Source: Syntrophorhabdaceae bacterium (lineage in GTDB: Bacteria; Desulfobacterota; Syntrophorhabdia; Syntrophorhabdales; Syntrophorhabdaceae). Taken from it: a DNA stretch of 48,099 nucleotides. The position numbers and the translations under genes were made by a program. Positions 1-48,099 of the stretch are shown piece by piece. The DNA is taken from the NCBI GenBank assembly GCA_036504895.1, contig DASXUJ010000087.1:1-48099 (forward strand), written 5' to 3'. Every line of letters starts with the position of its first letter. Within the stretch, counting starts at the first letter, position 1. The notes under the pieces are model-generated. The model had not been told where the DNA came from. It worked only from the letters and a program-made list of their open reading frames with translations, and ran no database searches.

Positions 1-3422
<3,422 letters not shown>

Positions 3423-3492
3423 TCGCCCGACCTCCTCCGGCCGCCCCTGAAGAGGGCGGAAGAAGGTCGACGGCATCGATTGGAGAAGGGCA

Positions 3493-4782
3493 TCATGAGT
3501 TGCCTTCTTCGATCCTTATATGAACGCTCTCGCCCTGTACGAACGGCAGACCGTCGATTTCGGATTTGGCCCTGTTGAGGTTCTCTTCAATCGCTTCGTG
3601 GGTGACGATCACCAGGGGCACGTGGCCCACTTCCCTTCTTCCCTTCTGGATCACCGAAGAAAGACTGATATTATATTGGGCGAGGATGCCCGAAATCTTC
3701 GAAAGAACGCCCGGCCTGTCTTCGACCGTAAACCGCATGTAGTAGGGAAAGGACGATTCTTCTGGTCTCCTCATGCGGCGTCCCTCTGCCTGAAAGGGCA
3801 TTATCGTCCTGGCGGCGCCCGCCCTGAACCTCGAGGCCATATCGACGATGTCGCTCACCACCGCGCTTCCCGTGGGGTCGCTGCCCGCGCCGCGGCCGTA
3901 ATAAAGGGTAGGCCCGACCCTGTCGCCCACTACATAGGTCGCATTGAAGACGCCGTTGACGTTGCTCATGGGATGGGCCGCCGGGATCATGGCCGGCTCT
4001 ACTCTGGCCTCGATCAGACCCTTTTCTTCCTTTGCCATTCCGAGCAATTTTATCCTGTATCCAAATTCTTTCGCGAACTGGATATCTATGGGATCGATCC
4101 TCGAGATGCCCGAGGTGGCCACATCCTTCATCTCCACCGGGTAGTGAAAGGCCAGGCGGGCCAGAATGCAGAGTTTATGCGCCGCGTCTATCCCTTCTAT
4201 ATCGAGGGTAGGGTCCTTCTCCGCAAAACCGAGACGCTGGGCTTCCGATAGGGCATTGCTGAAAGATATCCCCTCCTCCGTCATCCGGGAGAGTATGTAA
4301 TTGCATGTGCCGTTCAGGATACCGATGAGCGAAGTCAGCCGGTTCCCCACGAGGCCGTCTCGTATCGCCCTGATGACCGGGATGCCGCCGCATACGGAGG
4401 CCTCGAAGCCGATCTCCCCGTGCTGCTCCTCGGCGAGACGGAAAAGGTCGTCGCCCCTTTCGGCAAGAAGCGCCTTGTTCGCCGTTACCACCCACTTCTT
4501 TCTCTTCAATGCTTCCGATATGAAGTCGAATGCGAGGGTAGTTCCGCCCATAAGCTCGACCACGATATCGACCCGCTCGTCCTCGATAAGCTCCATGGCA
4601 TTGTTGACAAGGAGCCCCTTTTCAAGGGCAATGCCCCTGTCACTCGTAATATCCACGTCCGCGATCCTCACCACTTCCAATTCCGTCCCCGTCCTTAACC
4701 TTATAAGGGAGCCGTGGTCCCTGAGGATTTTGTACGTACCTACGCCTACGGTGCCTAAGCCTATTATACCTATTCCGATCAT
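3493..4782 (-). CDS. hom: Homoserine dehydrogenase with C-terminal ACT domain
   Basis: Reduces aspartate semialdehyde to homoserine on the way to threonine and methionine. The 429-residue protein has a Rossmann NAD(P)-binding N-terminus ([18 protein letters not shown]), the central catalytic domain with [14 protein letters not shown] and [19 protein letters not shown], and a C-terminal ACT domain from about residue 347 ([14 protein letters not shown]), expected to bind threonine for feedback inhibition. Length is typical for the monofunctional ACT-containing form. Its ATG shares the four bases ATGA with the stop of the upstream aminotransferase, and 70 bases separate it from apgM. Confidence 0.97.
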
Positions 4783-5963
4783 ATTTTTTTTGCTGAGTAA
4801 AGAAGGTTTTTTATCCCTTTTACCGCTTGTTTGATCCTGTGTTCATTCTCGATGAGGGCGAACCGTATATACCCCTCTCCATATTCCCCGAAACCGATAC
4901 CCGGCGATGTGGCAACCTTTGCCTCCCTCAGGAGAAGCTTTGAAAATTCGACCGAGCCCATCGATTCGAACTCTCCGGGTATTTTTGCCCAGACGAACAT
5001 AGTCGCCTTCGGTTTTTCCACAACCCAACCGAACCGGGAAAGCCCCTCACAAAGGACATCTCTCCTGCCCTTGTACCGGTCCACTATATTTAGAACCTCA
5101 TCATCGCATTCATTGAGGGCGATGATGGATGCAATCTGAATAGGCTGAAATACGCCGTAATCGAAATAACTCTTGATCCTGCTCAGGGCATTGATCATCT
5201 CCTTGTTTCCCACTGCAAAGCCTACCCTCCATCCGGGCATGCTGTAGCTTTTGGAGAGTGAATAGAATTCAACACCCACATCTTTCGCGCCTTTCGCCTG
5301 AAGGAAGCTCGGCGCCCGGTATCCGTCGAAGACGAGGTCCGCGTAGGCAAGATCGTGGACGACCATAAGATTGTGCTCCTTGGCAAAGGCAACTATTTTA
5401 TCAAAAAATTCCAAGTCCACCACTTCCGTGGTGGGGTTATTGGGAAAACTGATTATCAGCATCTTCGGCTGGGGCCAGGTGGTCTTGACCGCCATATTCA
5501 GCCGCTCGAAGAATTCTTCCCGGGGCATGAGCGGAATCGTCCGGAGATCTCCTCCCGCGATCACCACCGAATACGTGTGGATCGGATAGGCAGGTCCCGG
5601 AACAATGACCACTTCCCCCTGGCTTATGGTGGCGAGCACGAGGTGGCCGATCCCTTCCTTTGCCCCCATACAGACCACGACTTCCGAATCGGGATCTATC
5701 TCCACGTCATACTTTCTCTTATACCATTCCGACATGGCACTGCGCAGCTTATAAATGCCTTTCGTCACTGAATATCTGTGGTTTTTCGGGTTCCTCGCCG
5801 CCTCCACGAGTTTCGAGACGATGCACTTGGGAGTGGCCAGGTCAGGGTTGCCCATGCCGAGGTCGATAATGTCCTCTCCTCTTTTTCGTGCCTCTATGAG
5901 CAGGTCTCTTACGATTGCGAAGGTGTACGGGGGAAGCCTAGATATACGGTAAAAATCATCCAT
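4779..5963 (-). CDS. alaC: Class I/II pyridoxal-phosphate aminotransferase (AlaC-like)
   Basis: A fold-type I aminotransferase of 394 residues. The PLP lysine is in [16 protein letters not shown], and NNPTTE and the C-terminal FVWAKIP...RFALIE arginine region are present. The closest groups I recognise are the AlaC-type alanine/glutamate transaminases and LL-diaminopimelate or aspartate aminotransferases, so substrate is not certain; being translationally coupled to hom argues for aspartate-family or alanine metabolism. It is the first gene of the minus-strand operon (aminotransferase-hom-apgM-pyrG-kdsA). It starts at the ATG at 5963. Confidence 0.85.
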
Positions 5964-6061
5964 TTAGATGAAAAATACCATAGAACCGGCCGAACAATCA
6001 ACATCAAAAGAAACTTCTGAAATATTCGGGTATTAGCCTCTTTGGAGGTGATGTAGAACCC

Positions 6062-6544
6062 TTATAGCTTGTACCCGAACCTACGCAATAGGTCCTGCCG
6101 GGACCTCTTGTCTTCTGCGGCCTCGATGCCTTCCGGGCGGGCCCCGTCAATTACCCCGAGAATGCCGTTCCCATCCTGCCCCAGGGCCAGGACCACTTCC
6201 AGGGGGTTTGCAGTGGCACAGACAACATGACAGACTTCCTGGCAGGCTTTCACCGCATTGAGTATGTTTATGGGAAAACCCTCTTTGAGAAAGATGACGA
6301 AGGTATGGCCGGCGGAAAGGGCCATTGAGGTCTCACAGGCGAGTTTCATGAGAGCCTCGTCGTTCCCTTCATACCTCACCAGGCACGGCCCGCTCGCCTC
6401 GGAAAAGGCAATGCCGAATTTCAGGTGGGACGAGGAGCCCACGAGGATTTCATACATATCCTCCACAGTTTTCACGAAATGGGACTGGCCTATCACGATA
6501 TTCGCGCCTTCGGGGATGTCGATCTTTACCGTCTTTATCTCCAC
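6062..6544 (-). CDS. Adenosine-specific kinase (PF04008 family)
   Basis: A 160-residue protein of the adenosine-specific kinase family (structural prototype PAE2307). It is recognised by its compact length and by the segments FGIAFSEASGPCLVRYEGND, AGHTFVIFLKEGFPINIL and ATANPLEVVLALGQ, followed by a near C-terminal GVIDGARPEGIE. The family is thought to bind or phosphorylate adenosine, but its physiological role is poorly established. It precedes the radical SAM gene in map order but is transcribed leftward after it, with only 14 bases between the radical SAM stop and this ATG, so the two are probably co-transcribed. Confidence 0.9.
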   Translation of the reverse strand: MEIKTVKIDIPEGANIVIGQSHFVKTVEDMYEILVGSSSHLKFGIAFSEASGPCLVRYEGNDEALMKLACETSMALSAGHTFVIFLKEGFPINILNAVKACQEVCHVVCATANPLEVVLALGQDGNGILGVIDGARPEGIEAAEDKRSRQDLLRRFGYKL

Positions 6545-6558
6545 TGTTCAATCCTCCT

Positions 6559-7488
6559 TCATCCTTTTGTGCCGGTCCTCTCCTGGAAAGGCTTATCCTT
6601 TTTAAAATCGGGAACAAAGCAAGATGCGCTCTCCAACTCCTGAACGTACACGTTATGAAACCCGTATTGGTGCAAAAGCTCCAGAAGGGCGTTATATTCG
6701 TCCCTATTGATCTTCCGGTCGAGCATCGGATAGGTGCTTGCCTTATATAACGGGTTATACTGCGCCATGAGGCTCAGATAAGTCTGGGGCCCGAGGTTCT
6801 CCTTGATCCATGTGATGACCTCTTTGGAGCCCGCAAGGTTATTGGGCAGCACGAGGTGGCGGACGAGGAGCCCTTTTTTTGCAATCCCCTTTTCGACAAT
6901 CAGGTCGCCGACCTGGGACTTCATTTCGAGAATGGCGAATTTTGCCCATTTGGGATATTCATGGGCGTCGGAAAGGAGTTTTCCCATCTTCGGGTTCCCG
7001 TATTTGAAATCAGGGAGGTAGATATCGATAAGCCCCTTAAGAAGGCCCAGGGACTCCACATTCTCATAGGCATTCGTATTGTAAACGAAAGGCAGGGTGA
7101 ACCCCTTCCCCTTTGCCGCCCTGATCGCCGAAGCGATAAAGGAAATATAAGGGGTAGGACTTACAAGGTTGATATTATGGACCCCTTGTGCCGCAAGGGA
7201 AAAGAATAGGCTGACGAGGCCGTTCACATCGAGGCGCTCTCCCTCATGCTGTTGGCTGATCTGAAAATTCTGGCAATAGATGCACTTGAGGTTGCAGCCG
7301 CCGAAGAAGATATTCCCCGAACCCTTCTCGCCGGATATGGGAGGCTCTTCACCGAAATGAGGCCCGTAATGGGAGACGATGATCTCTTTGCCGACCCCGC
7401 AATACCCTTTCCTGTCCCTGGTCCTGCCCGCCTTACACCGCCGCGGGCAAAGCTCACACTTCACAAGATGGGAAAGAGCATTCTCCAT
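6559..7488 (-). CDS. Radical SAM protein, PflA-like (COG1313 type)
   Basis: A soluble protein of about 309 residues with an N-terminal zinc-like cysteine cluster (CELCPRRCKAGRTRDRKGYC) and the radical SAM [4Fe-4S] motif CNLKCIYCQNF. This layout is the one in PflA-homologous proteins annotated as putative pyruvate formate-lyase activating enzymes; the target is unknown. The frame is open to a TTG at 7503, but I prefer the ATG at 7488 because it begins at MENALSHLVKCELCP. No Shine-Dalgarno sequence precedes it. Instead TATAAT lies six bases before the ATG, which would place the transcription start at or next to the start codon (possible leaderless message). It is followed after 14 bases by the adenosine-specific kinase. 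Confidence 0.85.
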   Translation of the reverse strand: MENALSHLVKCELCPRRCKAGRTRDRKGYCGVGKEIIVSHYGPHFGEEPPISGEKGSGNIFFGGCNLKCIYCQNFQISQQHEGERLDVNGLVSLFFSLAAQGVHNINLVSPTPYISFIASAIRAAKGKGFTLPFVYNTNAYENVESLGLLKGLIDIYLPDFKYGNPKMGKLLSDAHEYPKWAKFAILEMKSQVGDLIVEKGIAKKGLLVRHLVLPNNLAGSKEVITWIKENLGPQTYLSLMAQYNPLYKASTYPMLDRKINRDEYNALLELLHQYGFHNVYVQELESASCFVPDFKKDKPFQERTGTKG

Positions 7489-7626
7489 ATCGATATTATA
7501 CAAAAATAACCGGCCGAAATAAAGCCCGGCCCAGTTTCAGGCCCAAGCTTCGTTCAAAAAACCGCTCAAACCCGGATCAGTCATGACACCGGAAACTCAG
7601 TCCACCTTCACACAAGCTATTCCTTT

Positions 7627-7799
7627 CCCCCGGCCTCTACAGTTTAAAAAGGCCGGGGTCGTGTGGAACGCGGATCGGGGTGGGGACTTCAGATTCGTCG
7701 TCTGGGGAGCATCGTGGACCGCAGCCGTATACTCATACGGCGAAGGGCTCGAGCGGACCCAGGCGGCGGATATGGAGTTCCCACCCCGATCCGCGTTCC
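7627..7799. repeat. Large imperfect palindrome in the 7504-7830 intergenic gap
   Basis: The 327-base gap has no convincing gene but is dominated by secondary structure. A first hairpin pairs CCCCGGCCT (7628-7636) with AGGCCGGGG (7650-7658). A second, much larger one has perfect 20-base arms at 7665-7684 and 7780-7799. Inside these arms 7685-7696 and 7697-7706 continue to pair with 7768-7779 and 7758-7767 if G-U pairs are allowed. The tip is GCCGTAT, four bases, ATACGGC at 7724-7741. The result would be a cruciform or RNA rod of about 135 bases. Both genes around it are transcribed leftward, so it could be a processing or stability element, a palindromic mobile repeat (REP/MITE-like), or a structured RNA. 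There is no T-run, so it is not a simple intrinsic terminator. Confidence 0.75.
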
Positions 7800-44364: not shown

Positions 44365-44707
44365 TCGCCCGGTACCATCAAGGAAAGCCGCATCGTCCCC
44401 TCAGAGGGCAATCTTTTGAGCAGAAAGGGGCCGTCCTTGATATATATTGATATTTGATACTTTCAACCCCTCCCTTCAAAGGGCATCATGCTCCTCAATC
44501 TCTTCCTTTTCTTCAATTATAGGGCTTCATTCAATGCTCCGGATGACGAGATCAGGAAGCGCGCCGGTCAGGTCTATAAAATCCCCTTCTTGTAAACCCG
44601 TTAATGCGTTAATGCGTGAAAGCGTTGATGCGTTAAAGACACGCAAGTCGTCTCAAATTCGACCGAATCCGACCGCGTCGTTCTGGGCGGGGAGGATGTC
44701 GATAAAC
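44365..44707. other. Intergenic region with degenerate tandem units
   Basis: About 340 bases between tetR and the HigA gene. It contains degenerate repeats of GCGTTAAT/GCGTTGAT at 44600-44638. On the minus strand an open stretch reads RINALTGLQEGDFIDLTGAL, then PDLVIRSIE and a stop; it lacks a start and is probably a decayed fragment or chance. No gene is supported. Confidence 0.4.
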
Positions 44708-45022
44708 TTATGCGGCGGGTAGGCGCACGATACGCTCAATCTCCTCCTTGTGCCGCGTCCCGGCTTCCCACAAATCAAAAGCCTGCTGGGCGTTTAACCA
44801 AAACTCCGGGCTATTGCCGAAGAGGCGAGCGAGCTTCAATGCCATGGTTGAAGTCATAGCGCGCCGCTCCCGAAGTAATTCATTGACTGTCTGCCGGGAT
44901 GTCCCGAGGGCTGCGGCAAGGGAGGCGACGGTTAAGCCATAGTCAGGCATAAAGTCCTCTCGAAGCATCTCTCCGGGGTGTGTCGGCTTTATTTTCCTCA
45001 TGCCTTCATTTTTGATACTCAT
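44708..45022 (-). CDS. higA: HigA-family antitoxin
   Basis: 104 residues, with the HigA pattern KPTHPGEMLREDFMPDYGL, the Cro/C1 helix-turn-helix TVASLAAALGTSRQTVNELL, and FGNSPEFWLNAQQAFDLWEA. It neutralises the toxin encoded directly upstream and represses the operon. GAGGTG lies four bases before the ATG at 45022; a second ATG seven codons in is also possible. The toxin-first order is typical of higBA. Confidence 0.93.
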   Translation of the reverse strand: MSIKNEGMRKIKPTHPGEMLREDFMPDYGLTVASLAAALGTSRQTVNELLRERRAMTSTMALKLARLFGNSPEFWLNAQQAFDLWEAGTRHKEEIERIVRLPAA

Positions 45023-45032
45023 TGAACACCTC

Positions 45033-45314
45033 TTAATGATAATCTGTTATTTCAACATCATACGCATCTCCGTCGGCAAATCTGAAACAGATACGCCACT
45101 GATCATTTATGGAAATAGCGTACGTTCCTTCCCGATCTCCCTTCAATCCGTGAAGACGATTGCTCGGGGGCACTCTCAAATCATCGATGCATGTCGCCAG
45201 GTCAACATACTCCAACCTCCGTACGGCTCTCCTGATGATGTCAGGTTGCAGCCGTTTCGATTTCCCCGCCGTGAATAACTCCTTAGTATGTTTATCAGCA
45301 AAGGTCTTTATCAC
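45033..45314 (-). CDS. higB: HigB-family toxin (RelE superfamily mRNA interferase)
   Basis: 93 residues: IKTFADKHTKELFTAG, IIRRAVRRLEYVDLATCIDD, LRVPPSNRLHGLKGDREGTY, and the C-terminal INDQWRICFRF...VEITDYH, the standard HigB core with its basic and aromatic residues. HigB-type toxins cut mRNA on the ribosome. Stop and higA start are 10 bases apart. It marks the left side of accessory DNA. Confidence 0.93.
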   Translation of the reverse strand: MIKTFADKHTKELFTAGKSKRLQPDIIRRAVRRLEYVDLATCIDDLRVPPSNRLHGLKGDREGTYAISINDQWRICFRFADGDAYDVEITDYH

Positions 45315-45446: not shown

Positions 45447-45824
45447 ATAGCTGACAAACGTGACAATGTATATCTGCCAATTCCGCAGGCCGTCCGTTCG
45501 GCTCCTTTAGGTAGTTAGTCACTCCTTAAGGCTTTTTACGTCCGTGGAAAGACGGAGCGTACCACGACGCGATGCCTTTCTCTTCGTAACCTTGTTTGCT
45601 CAACACGGGGCAATGTGTCCTCGTCGGATCGGTACAGTTCACCCTCTTTGCCCTTTTTGGTGGAGCGGCAGGTTTTACCGGGGTTTGGCGCTCAGGAGGA
45701 ATAACTTCGGCTTATGGGGTGAAGGGGCCCTAGGGGTAGTTGACCAGCGTGACAACGTATATCTGCCAATTCCGCAGGCCGTCCATTTGGTTCCTTTAGG
45801 CAGTTAGTCAAGTTTGTCAACTAC
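45447..45824. repeat. Repeat block: ~75-bp direct repeat with terminal inverted repeats
   Basis: The 711-base gap 45315-46025 has no supported gene. Two copies (45447-45520 and 45735-45809) share GTATATCTGCCAATTCCGCA followed by GGCCGTCC and TTTAGG.AGTTAGTCA. The left end of copy 1 (TAGCTGACAAACGTGAC) and the right end after copy 2, read on the minus strand (TAGTTGACAAACTTGAC), are inverted repeats with two mismatches, bounding about 378 bases. Copy 2 also has a perfect nine-base inverted pair GTAGTTGAC / GTCAACTAC (45736-45744 with 45816-45824). This looks like a MITE or a remnant of an insertion. Confidence 0.7.
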
Positions 45825-46025: not shown

Positions 46026-47597
46026 GTGTCTAACCGTTATCTGTATGACAAGCTTACACAAATGAATCCTGCTCTTGCGGGTGAATTGGATAACATTTAT
46101 AAAGAAACGCTCAAGATGTGGGCTGAGCAAGCCTTCCGACTATATACGGCGCACGGGCAACCACACATTGAGCAAGTAGAGCAGAATCTCGATAATTTAA
46201 CGCGCCCTCTTATGGAATCCGCGATGCCATTGGAGCCGGAAGAGATTTATGTTCTGTTAGCAGCTTGCTGTTTGCATGATATCGGGATGCAGCTCGATGA
46301 GCCTGATGCAAGAGAAAAACATGCGCAATATGCCTACGATCTTATTCTTTATTCTTCGGCCCAGATAGGCCCGGAAGTAAGGCGAATCACTCTACCAATC
46401 ACCGATACTAACCAGCGCCAAGCTATAGCTCTTATCGCCAGAGCGCACTGGACAGATTTTGCTCTAGCGCTTGATTCGGAAGATTACATTTTCAACAATC
46501 GACGGGGGCGACTCCGGCTTTTAGGGACACTGCTTGCACTGGCAGACCTATTAGATATTTCTCCGGTTCGCGCACGGTATTTTCGAACCATTCACCGCCT
46601 TTACGATTTAAACCCCGTATCTGAGTTGCACCAGGTTAAGCATGCCCTCGTCAAGGGATTTCAAATCGTAACGCCTAATCCGATGCTTAGAAACGAGCTA
46701 CAGTTTCAACTTTCTTGGCATAAGGACGACGATATCGTACGCGATATGGCGGATTGGATCATGCAGTGGTTTAATTCGCAGTGGAGACAGTTGAGCCCAG
46801 AGATCTATGAAATGTCCCGCGGTACTATTGGTTGGGCAAAACCGTGGGCAAAAGTTGCGTTCAACGCTCAAAAAGGGCCGTTGCCGGATTTGAAAGTTGA
46901 TGCTCTTAACATACTTAAGGCGGAAAGAGCTGAACAACGCCGTATCGATCGGGATCTAATTGTTGCAAGATTCAGGGGGGCAATTCAAAACGGAGAAACG
47001 AAGCTTTTCTTGTTTTCAAAAGACCCTGATTTTGATGGACGTGAGCTCACAAGATGGTGCGAGGCAGATGCAAGTCTGCAGAACGGATGTTTAGTTGCAC
47101 GCGCTGATATTCAGGCGAATATCCCATTGGATTTAGCGAGTATTGTTTCGCAGCTTATGGAACAATTCGGCAGACACATGGCGCAAAGCTCAGATATTGA
47201 CGCCTTGGAAGAGCTTCGAGCCTTCGCATCAACAACTGAAAAACCAATCGTCAGTATCATTATTACAGATCAATATCGAAGCGATATTATAAATCGACTG
47301 CTCAGGACTCTTGCCCTGCGGCCTGATACAAATCCTCCTGTTGCTAGGGTTTGTTTGTATCTCTCGACTGGAGCAAGGGGGCCGAAAGAACTTCTCGGGG
47401 TTGAAATTGAAGACTTTGCTGGCTCCTTTTTCACTCGTGAAGATGTAGAAAAGCATTTGAAAACGAATTGGGGTTACACTGATAATGAGGCATGCGAAAT
47501 ATGCGATAAAATGTCTGGAATAGGCATCGATAGAGAACCGGGAAAAATCTATAATTATATTAATTGGCATTGCGGGATTTCGTCGCTTTACGAGTAA
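46026..47597 (+). CDS. HD-domain protein with C-terminal STAND-like module
   Basis: 523 residues from a GTG (AGGA six bases upstream). The N-terminal half is an HD phosphohydrolase-type domain with all metal positions: H47 (GQPHIEQV), H84-D85 (LLAACCLHDIGMQ), H141 (LIARAHWTDF) and D174 (LLALADLLDISPVR). It resembles the HD-CE group found in predicted conflict systems. The C-terminal half (about 312-500) has strand patterns like a STAND NTPase core (ETKLFLFSKDPDFDG, CLVARADIQANIPLDLASIV, PIVSIIITDQYRSD) but no P-loop, suggesting an inactive nucleotide-binding fold. Base composition is visibly more A/T-rich than the rest of the window. A second gene of the locus follows after 69 bases. Function unknown; defence is inference. 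Confidence 0.75.
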   Translation: MSNRYLYDKLTQMNPALAGELDNIYKETLKMWAEQAFRLYTAHGQPHIEQVEQNLDNLTRPLMESAMPLEPEEIYVLLAACCLHDIGMQLDEPDAREKHAQYAYDLILYSSAQIGPEVRRITLPITDTNQRQAIALIARAHWTDFALALDSEDYIFNNRRGRLRLLGTLLALADLLDISPVRARYFRTIHRLYDLNPVSELHQVKHALVKGFQIVTPNPMLRNELQFQLSWHKDDDIVRDMADWIMQWFNSQWRQLSPEIYEMSRGTIGWAKPWAKVAFNAQKGPLPDLKVDALNILKAERAEQRRIDRDLIVARFRGAIQNGETKLFLFSKDPDFDGRELTRWCEADASLQNGCLVARADIQANIPLDLASIVSQLMEQFGRHMAQSSDIDALEELRAFASTTEKPIVSIIITDQYRSDIINRLLRTLALRPDTNPPVARVCLYLSTGARGPKELLGVEIEDFAGSFFTREDVEKHLKTNWGYTDNEACEICDKMSGIGIDREPGKIYNYINWHCGISSLYE

Positions 47598-47666
47598 ATT
47601 AGGACATGGTGAAGCCGTGCAGTTGTATTTATCAAAACACGATGATAAAATATAGATAAGCAGGAT

Positions 47667-48099
47667 ATGAGCATGCCTCAATCAGCAGTTTCGGAATATA
47701 TTGATCTGCTCTCAGGTGATGAAAAAGCTAAACGCGCGCTTTTCGCCTGTTCAGCAGCGCTTTCGCTTAATGATGCGATAGCCCGACAAGCGATAGGCTT
47801 AGTGACCCAGAGCGATGGTTCAACGGAAAGCCTCCTTCGACGTGTAAAGAGTTTAGGCTGTGTATGGACGCAATGGGACGGTACTTGGTATATTGCTGAA
47901 GATATCCGTCCTCACTTATTAGAGCATTTATCTGAAAATGTACCGGTAGAGACTCAACTCCTTCTTCGCAAACGTCTGTTGGAACTGGCAGAAAATAGTG
48001 CGCAAGCCTATTCTTCGGATGGGCAAATAACCGCTTTCAGAAAGCACCGTGCAAAATTTGAAGCCGCTTATCAACGTACGCTCATTCCTGATCAAACTG
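47667..48099 (+). CDS. Hypothetical protein, cut by window end (winged-helix-like N-terminus)
   Basis: The frame from ATG 47667 is open for 144 codons to the window edge. It begins MSMPQSAVSEYIDLLSGDEK; the next 70 residues (ALFACSAALSLNDAIARQAI, ESLLRRVKSLGCV, WDGTWYIAEDIRPHLLEHL) look like a winged-helix module of the type that follows STAND NTPase cores, and the following ETQLLLRKRLLELAENSAQA helices could begin a TPR-like array. An alternative start is the ATG at 47673. Same A/T-rich composition as the HD gene and only 69 bases after it, so likely one operon. What lies beyond cannot be seen. Confidence 0.6.
   Translation, partial: MSMPQSAVSEYIDLLSGDEKAKRALFACSAALSLNDAIARQAIGLVTQSDGSTESLLRRVKSLGCVWTQWDGTWYIAEDIRPHLLEHLSENVPVETQLLLRKRLLELAENSAQAYSSDGQITAFRKHRAKFEAAYQRTLIPDQT

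Follow-up and report, generated by a model that had tools for sequence, protein, structure and literature searches.

A rare HD-CE and TPR gene pair as a candidate immunity system with a putative STAND core lacking Walker A

The gene pair and its surroundings in the window

The window, i.e. the whole stretch of DNA analysed here (48,099 bases), is an entire contig (C87) of a genome of 4.35 Mb in 138 contigs. The gene pair under study, p1 and p2, and the features upstream of it are located as follows.

44592-44636: short stretch with an 8-nt period
44708-45022, minus strand: HTH antitoxin
45033-45314, minus strand: HigB-like toxin
45448-45521 and 45737-45810: direct repeat of 74 nt in two copies (89% alike, 289 nt apart), between HigBA and p1
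46026-47597, plus strand: p1, ORF of 523 aa with an HD-CE domain and a candidate P-loop-less STAND/AAA+-like half, of similar length at four related loci (L043, L046, L047 and L049)
46134-46781, plus strand: HD-CE domain of p1 (Pfam, aa 37-252), metal site H47, H84, D85, H99, H141 and D174
47667-48098, plus strand: N-terminal part of p2, 144 aa, with a family-specific N-terminus; open frame truncated by the contig end

Both open reading frames of the original prediction were borne out, the second one being open from 47667 to the end of the window; sequence past position 48099 was sought, and the contig holds none, as it ends there. The p1 gene starts with GTG, with AGGA 6 nt upstream, and is separated from p2 by 69 nt. 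The pair is A/T-rich, as had been predicted, with a GC content of 45.8% in p1 and 46.3% in p2 versus 54.5% in positions 1-44000, and the toxin-antitoxin pair expected next to it was recovered on the minus strand. The repeat block that had been noted as well consists of the two 74-nt copies and the 8-nt-period stretch. No Rfam family matched the window between 43400 and 48099; with two copies only and no such match, the repeats were rejected as CRISPR or a known RNA element. At the 3' edge of the second repeat, matches of 28-30 nt are found at two sites on another contig of the genome (C10).

The Pfam family HD-CE (PF24391) was assigned to p1 with an E-value of 1.5e-27 (97.4 bits, curated cut-off 27), while the same scan gave nothing credible on the remainder of p1 or on p2. 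All six metal-site residues were invariant in an alignment of p1 with 12 HD-CE proteins from the same phylum sample and also across the five-member family described below (the window and the four related loci), in agreement with the complete metal site originally predicted. Since these residues are invariant, the HD domain is likely to be catalytically competent, a prediction made from sequence. NCBIfam and PHROGs gave weak matches only on the pair. With PADLOC, a partial match to RT_UG24 was obtained in the HD part of p1 (E 2.8e-8, profile positions 820-910 of 1036) and a weaker one at L043, and generic TPR models were matched as well; beyond these, no PADLOC defence model was assigned to p1 or p2.

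Related loci, their neighbours and distribution

Searches with p1 alone (tblastn and peptide scans, including genome contigs) gave nothing useful. Relatives were found by scanning with an HD alignment of three rows, which led to 15 loci. The two-gene layout recurs in four of them, each with an HD-CE protein of approx 520 aa followed by a p2 of 456 to 551 aa, and the junction between both genes ranges from a 4-nt overlap to a 1-nt gap.

L043, Agromyces sp. H66: p1 523 aa, p2 471 aa, 1-nt overlap
L046, Nitrospinota MAG: p1 513 aa (from the ATG used here; 522 aa from the listed TTG), p2 456 aa, 4-nt overlap
L047, Mycobacterium sp. URHD0025: p1 544 aa, p2 479 aa, 1-nt gap
L049, Ca. Electronema: p1 533 aa, p2 551 aa, zero gap

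Membership was assessed by leave-one-out comparisons, in which a profile was built from four members and the fifth served as the target, with E-values calculated for one target and 200 shuffled sequences for comparison. The N-terminus of p2 was recognised in all five members (window 1e-10, L043 8.8e-10, L046 9.2e-7, L047 9.2e-12, L049 6.8e-9), and none of the 200 shuffles scored as well as the window p2. For the C-terminus of p1, the window (E 8.8e-7, 0 of 200 shuffles as good), L043 (5.4e-14) and L047 (1.8e-6) were recovered, while L046 (0.0079, 3 of 200 shuffles as good) and L049 (0.031, 12 of 200) failed. These results indicate that the pair is conserved and that the C-terminal half of p1 is fast-evolving. 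The partnership of p1 and p2 put forward in the original prediction is strongly supported, as the layout is shared by four other loci and the window matches them by leave-one-out.

In a first tree of the HD domains, the window was grouped with L020, a placement that was discarded, the L020 branch being 5.18 long; the tree was therefore rebuilt after 12 of the 26 rows had been dropped. The rebuilt tree places the five pairs together with a further locus, L075, on one side of a branch with a support of 91/90. Forcing the five pairs together alone costs 5.6 log units (p-AU 0.11), so that such a clade is neither shown nor rejected.

Toxin-type or restriction-type genes are neighbours of the pair at four of the five loci. 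At the Agromyces locus, a DNA methylase, a GmrSD_N protein and an unknown gene are encoded on the same strand just upstream of the pair (4591-7717), which is possibly a restriction-type cluster; the GmrSD_N protein was labelled NsnA by PADLOC (7.4e-34), and HipA is encoded 1.1 kb beyond the pair. An OloB-like protein (1.2e-8) is encoded 1.7 kb downstream of the Mycobacterium pair, and in the Nitrospinota MAG a PIN-domain gene overlaps p2. The labels NsnA and OloB (Olokun) are those of PADLOC, and a literature search on both returned nothing relevant. The Electronema pair is surrounded by housekeeping genes, with no defence gene among its neighbours, which include a HhH-GPD/endonuclease fusion, hemerythrin and gyrA. 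The fusion is labelled as a nicking endonuclease by PADLOC; we take it to be a repair enzyme. No MoxR or vWA domain was present among 20 neighbour proteins scanned with Pfam, which for the window cover the upstream side. None of the four loci outside the window is a metabolic operon, a setting that would have counted against the original prediction had it been the only one.

The distribution of the family is sporadic. Full-length members were found by profile search (thresholds of 1e-10 or 1e-20) in the respective seed genome alone in each of six genome sets, some of which are samples.

Own phylum: 1 of 395 genomes, further matches in HD only
Class of Agromyces: 1 of 345
Genus of L043: 1 of 60
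Phylum of L046: 1 of 77, plus G844
Genus of L047: 1 of 138
Family of L049: 1 of 73

The HD-CE domain as such exceeded the Pfam cut-off in 26 of the 395 genomes of the own phylum sample, and a phmmer search that used the p1 C-terminal half as query found none of the HD-CE proteins fetched from it. Viral scans gave no relative, nor did tblastn against plasmids and phages, in which one chance-level match (E=6) was seen. As no further full member turned up, the family stays at five loci; p1 and p2 constitute a conserved, rare two-gene module.

Among the other 11 loci, three code for single chains in which HD-CE is fused to an intact STAND NTPase with intact P-loops.

L045: HD-CE, NACHT and FGE-sulfatase
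L048, 96-3230, in a MAG: HD-CE, nSTAND_NTPase5 and TPR
L051, 7989-10997, in a Methanophagales archaeon: HD-CE, nSTAND3 and TPR

The remaining ones have other or unassigned C-termini, are cut or are doubtful. Left out of this count of architectures were L050, which from its sequence we take to be a Ppx/GppA phosphatase, and L052, rejected because the longest frame overlapping it does not make a credible gene; L054 was left unclassed, and L044 runs off its contig. At L075 (genome G844, 2276-5476), an HD-CE frame is followed by one in-frame TAA and a STAND-TPR-SEC-C frame with an intact P-loop (GLGGFGKT), adjoining an Eco57I-type methylase.

The C-terminal half of p1 and the p2 protein

Following the HD-CE domain, these features were assigned to the C-terminal half of p1, the fragment modelled here starting at aa 253.

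46944-47420, plus strand: aa about 307-465, putative core of AAA+/STAND-like type (residues 55-213 of the fragment in VIA-align; low-confidence model)
47019-47045, plus strand: degenerate Walker A place, aa 332-340, ending in DFDGRE; aligned to GKTAL of ORC5
47247-47267, plus strand: aa 408-414 with the SIIITD region, putative strand where Walker B would lie (strand at residues 156-161 in the model of the fragment; alignment)
47421-47594, plus strand: aa 466-523, C-terminal helices that may form a reduced lid (model helices, low confidence)

The Walker A pattern G....GK[ST] is absent from all five p1 proteins; by eye, the alignments have DGRE at its place in the window and in L043, DRD in L046, DGQT in L047 and GNG in L049. 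The structure of the p1 C-terminus was predicted from five rows with a mean pLDDT of 44, for which reason the fold matches may be flattered. With this model, Foldseek gave no match at E <=0.001 (best 1.1e-3), and all 50 rows listed contain AAA+ or STAND domains by title (ORC/Cdc6, plant NLRs, Dark and other AAA+ proteins). The same is true for all 50 rows listed by VIA-align, with the best Z-score of 11.0 for Cdc6/Orc1 (rmsd 3.3 A over 150 residues), followed by ORC5 (10.9) and the NLR NRC2 (10.4). A single-sequence AF2 model of full p1 (pLDDT 36.9), used as a loose control, gave matches for the most part to designed helical or repeat proteins, with E-values of 0.1 and worse; differing in length and content, it says only that low confidence by itself gives no AAA+ matches.

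A sequence profile of the family matched ORC5 (4xgc_E) with an E-value of 0.012, DGREL of p1 being aligned with GKTAL of ORC5, and a profile of the p1 C-terminus alone misses ORC5. Pfam models for STAND, NACHT and NB-ARC gave no match in any of the five p1 proteins at the limits used. The p1 C-terminus was also compared with four intact HD-CE STAND proteins by hhalign and hmmsearch and stayed within the range of decoys and shuffles; the p2 N-terminus (both programs) and the two regions jointly (hmmsearch) did no better. Because of these negative comparisons, a STAND/ORC-type AAA+ core without Walker A is a likely, not a proven, assignment for the C-terminal half of p1, and the model and sequence evidence lends moderate support to a STAND-type fold. 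The missing Walker A, the AAA+/STAND fold matches and the ORC5 alignment favour this part of the original prediction, while the profile searches against the intact HD-CE STAND proteins do not; an unrelated fold was not found for this half, the rows listed by the fold searches being AAA+/STAND-containing entries.

TPR repeats are present in all four complete p2 proteins. The N-terminal 100 residues of p2 are family-specific and lie where a winged helix would be expected in a STAND protein; the winged-helix-like N-terminus that had been suggested was named by no search. The p2 of the window probably continues on contig C27 of the same genome, where a low-GC frame of 310 aa, open at the 5' end of the contig and oriented as expected, is located at 1-930. 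In a search of this genome with the p2 profile, it was the best match after p2 itself (E 6.1e-10); it is also the best match there to p2 of the Nitrospinota MAG (E 1.8e-24) and is not among the matches listed for p2 of L043, L047 or L049. Its GC content is 45.4%, similar to p1 and p2, versus 52.8% in C27 1001-8000. Since the ends of C87 and C27 have no common suffix of 12 bases or more, the join is one that we infer, and the joined p2 would measure about 455-475 aa. Neither the p2 proteins nor the C27 frame contain G....GK[ST]. The genes past this frame on C27, recognised by eye, are presumably rpsB, tsf, pyrH and frr.

A possible immune-type switch, alternatives and related systems

STAND receptors are thought to run on an ATP/ADP switch. 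For p1 and p2, we propose with a probability of roughly 0.5 a two-protein switch of the immune type, in which a STAND receptor is split after a P-loop-less NTPase and the TPR protein p2 gates the HD effector. The effector would be the HD-CE metal-dependent phosphohydrolase of p1, joined in one chain to an AAA+ core of the STAND/ORC clade in which Walker A is lost. The remaining receptor would be provided by p2, namely an N-terminal adaptor at the winged-helix position and a TPR superstructure. Both proteins would form an inactive complex as long as no trigger is present. The TPR half of p2 might bind an invader ligand and thereby alter how p2 contacts the dead NTPase core, or allow p1 to multimerise, a switch that would be independent of ATP hydrolysis; the freed HD site may then cleave nucleic acid or nucleotides. 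The neighbours at four of the five loci, the sporadic distribution and the low GC content are circumstantial evidence and fit a conflict or defence system. Still more tentative is the idea of a further way to build a bacterial NLR-like receptor, with a cut between dead NTPase and sensor, in which the TPR protein would gate the HD effector via a nucleotide-independent protein or nucleic-acid switch. If true, the pair would offer a natural way to examine how far receptor control requires nucleotide, and HD-CE would be one more effector coupled to a dead STAND module. At L043, L046, L047 and L049, the two-gene operons are short and complete and can be cloned in laboratory strains.

HD domains serve in signalling too, and a regulatory role of the HD phosphohydrolase and its TPR partner, in stress or nucleotide signalling and not in defence, with the C-terminal half of p1 as a scaffold domain, would agree with the Electronema pair between housekeeping genes and with the lack of phage-linked copies in the viral and phage searches. 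Housekeeping signalling would, however, hardly be expected to show such extreme patchiness (1 of 138 and 1 of 60 genomes in two genera) or a low GC content together with neighbours of toxin or restriction type at four of the five loci, and we regard this explanation as rather unlikely. The pair might also be an accessory to neighbouring restriction or toxin modules, such as the methylase/NsnA-like cluster of Agromyces just upstream on the same strand, and depend on an active ATPase from elsewhere, as with iSTAND proteins, which are found beside MoxR and vWA in the available excerpts of PMC7159879. The neighbours vary from locus to locus, though, p1 and p2 alone recurring, and neither MoxR nor vWA was among those scanned, which makes this accessory role quite unlikely. 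Decay of a single HD-STAND-TPR gene into p1 and p2, for which the two frames of L075 parted by a stop codon could serve as a model, is highly improbable: the P-loop of L075 is intact and its frames are interrupted ahead of the NTPase, whereas the five pairs break after it, have open frames throughout and possess an own start for each gene.

The reading of p1 and p2 as a split STAND receptor has counterparts among known systems. According to the available excerpts of the respective papers, inactive STAND modules act as sensors, fused to effectors, in MoxR-vWA systems (PMC7159879, PMC8195603) and likewise in BREX (PMC12839542), and a two-gene operon codes for an inactive STAND module fused to GT4 or HEPN beside a second STAND module (PMC8195603). 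The iSTAND and iSTAND2 proteins of MoxR-vWA systems would share with p1 an inactive STAND core and an N-terminal signalling or effector module and are proposed sensors; no MoxR or vWA gene was among the scanned neighbours of the pair, and these excerpts describe no HD-CE fusion for iSTAND. The GT4/HEPN operon is, as the pair would be, a mobile two-gene operon with an inactive STAND module on the effector, but its partner is a second STAND module instead of a TPR protein without Walker A. With BrxB/PglW iSTAND of BREX, the pair would have in common a STAND module lacking the P-loop, either fused to an effector or paired with one, and rapid evolution, as far as the excerpts of PMC12839542 go, while no BREX core gene was among its scanned neighbours. 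Neither HD-CE nor an NTPase-less TPR partner is named in the available excerpts of these three papers. In the single chains of L045, L048 and L051, HD-CE is N-terminal to a STAND NTPase, as it would be in p1, and two of the three have TPR; they keep Walker A intact on one chain, whereas the pair lacks Walker A and has its putative sensor half in a second gene. If the fold holds, the pair would thus belong to the effector-plus-inactive-STAND kind in a new layout and is a candidate immunity system. Literature searches on HD-CE, PF24391 and the pairing of HD with STAND found no description, which is not a claim of absence from print.

HD-CE is also shared with fusions to an HSP90-like ATPase (L006, L011), in which a GHKL ATPase replaces the STAND-like core; PMC3710099 contains nothing on HD domains with HSP90-like ATPases. 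One of these fusions, L006, is a second HD-CE protein of the genome that contains the window, encoded in a frame of 1192 aa on the minus strand (G000:C40, about 3287-3988). Fusions of HD-CE to an IF-2B-like domain are encoded at L041 (7923-10772) and L053 (4300-6315).
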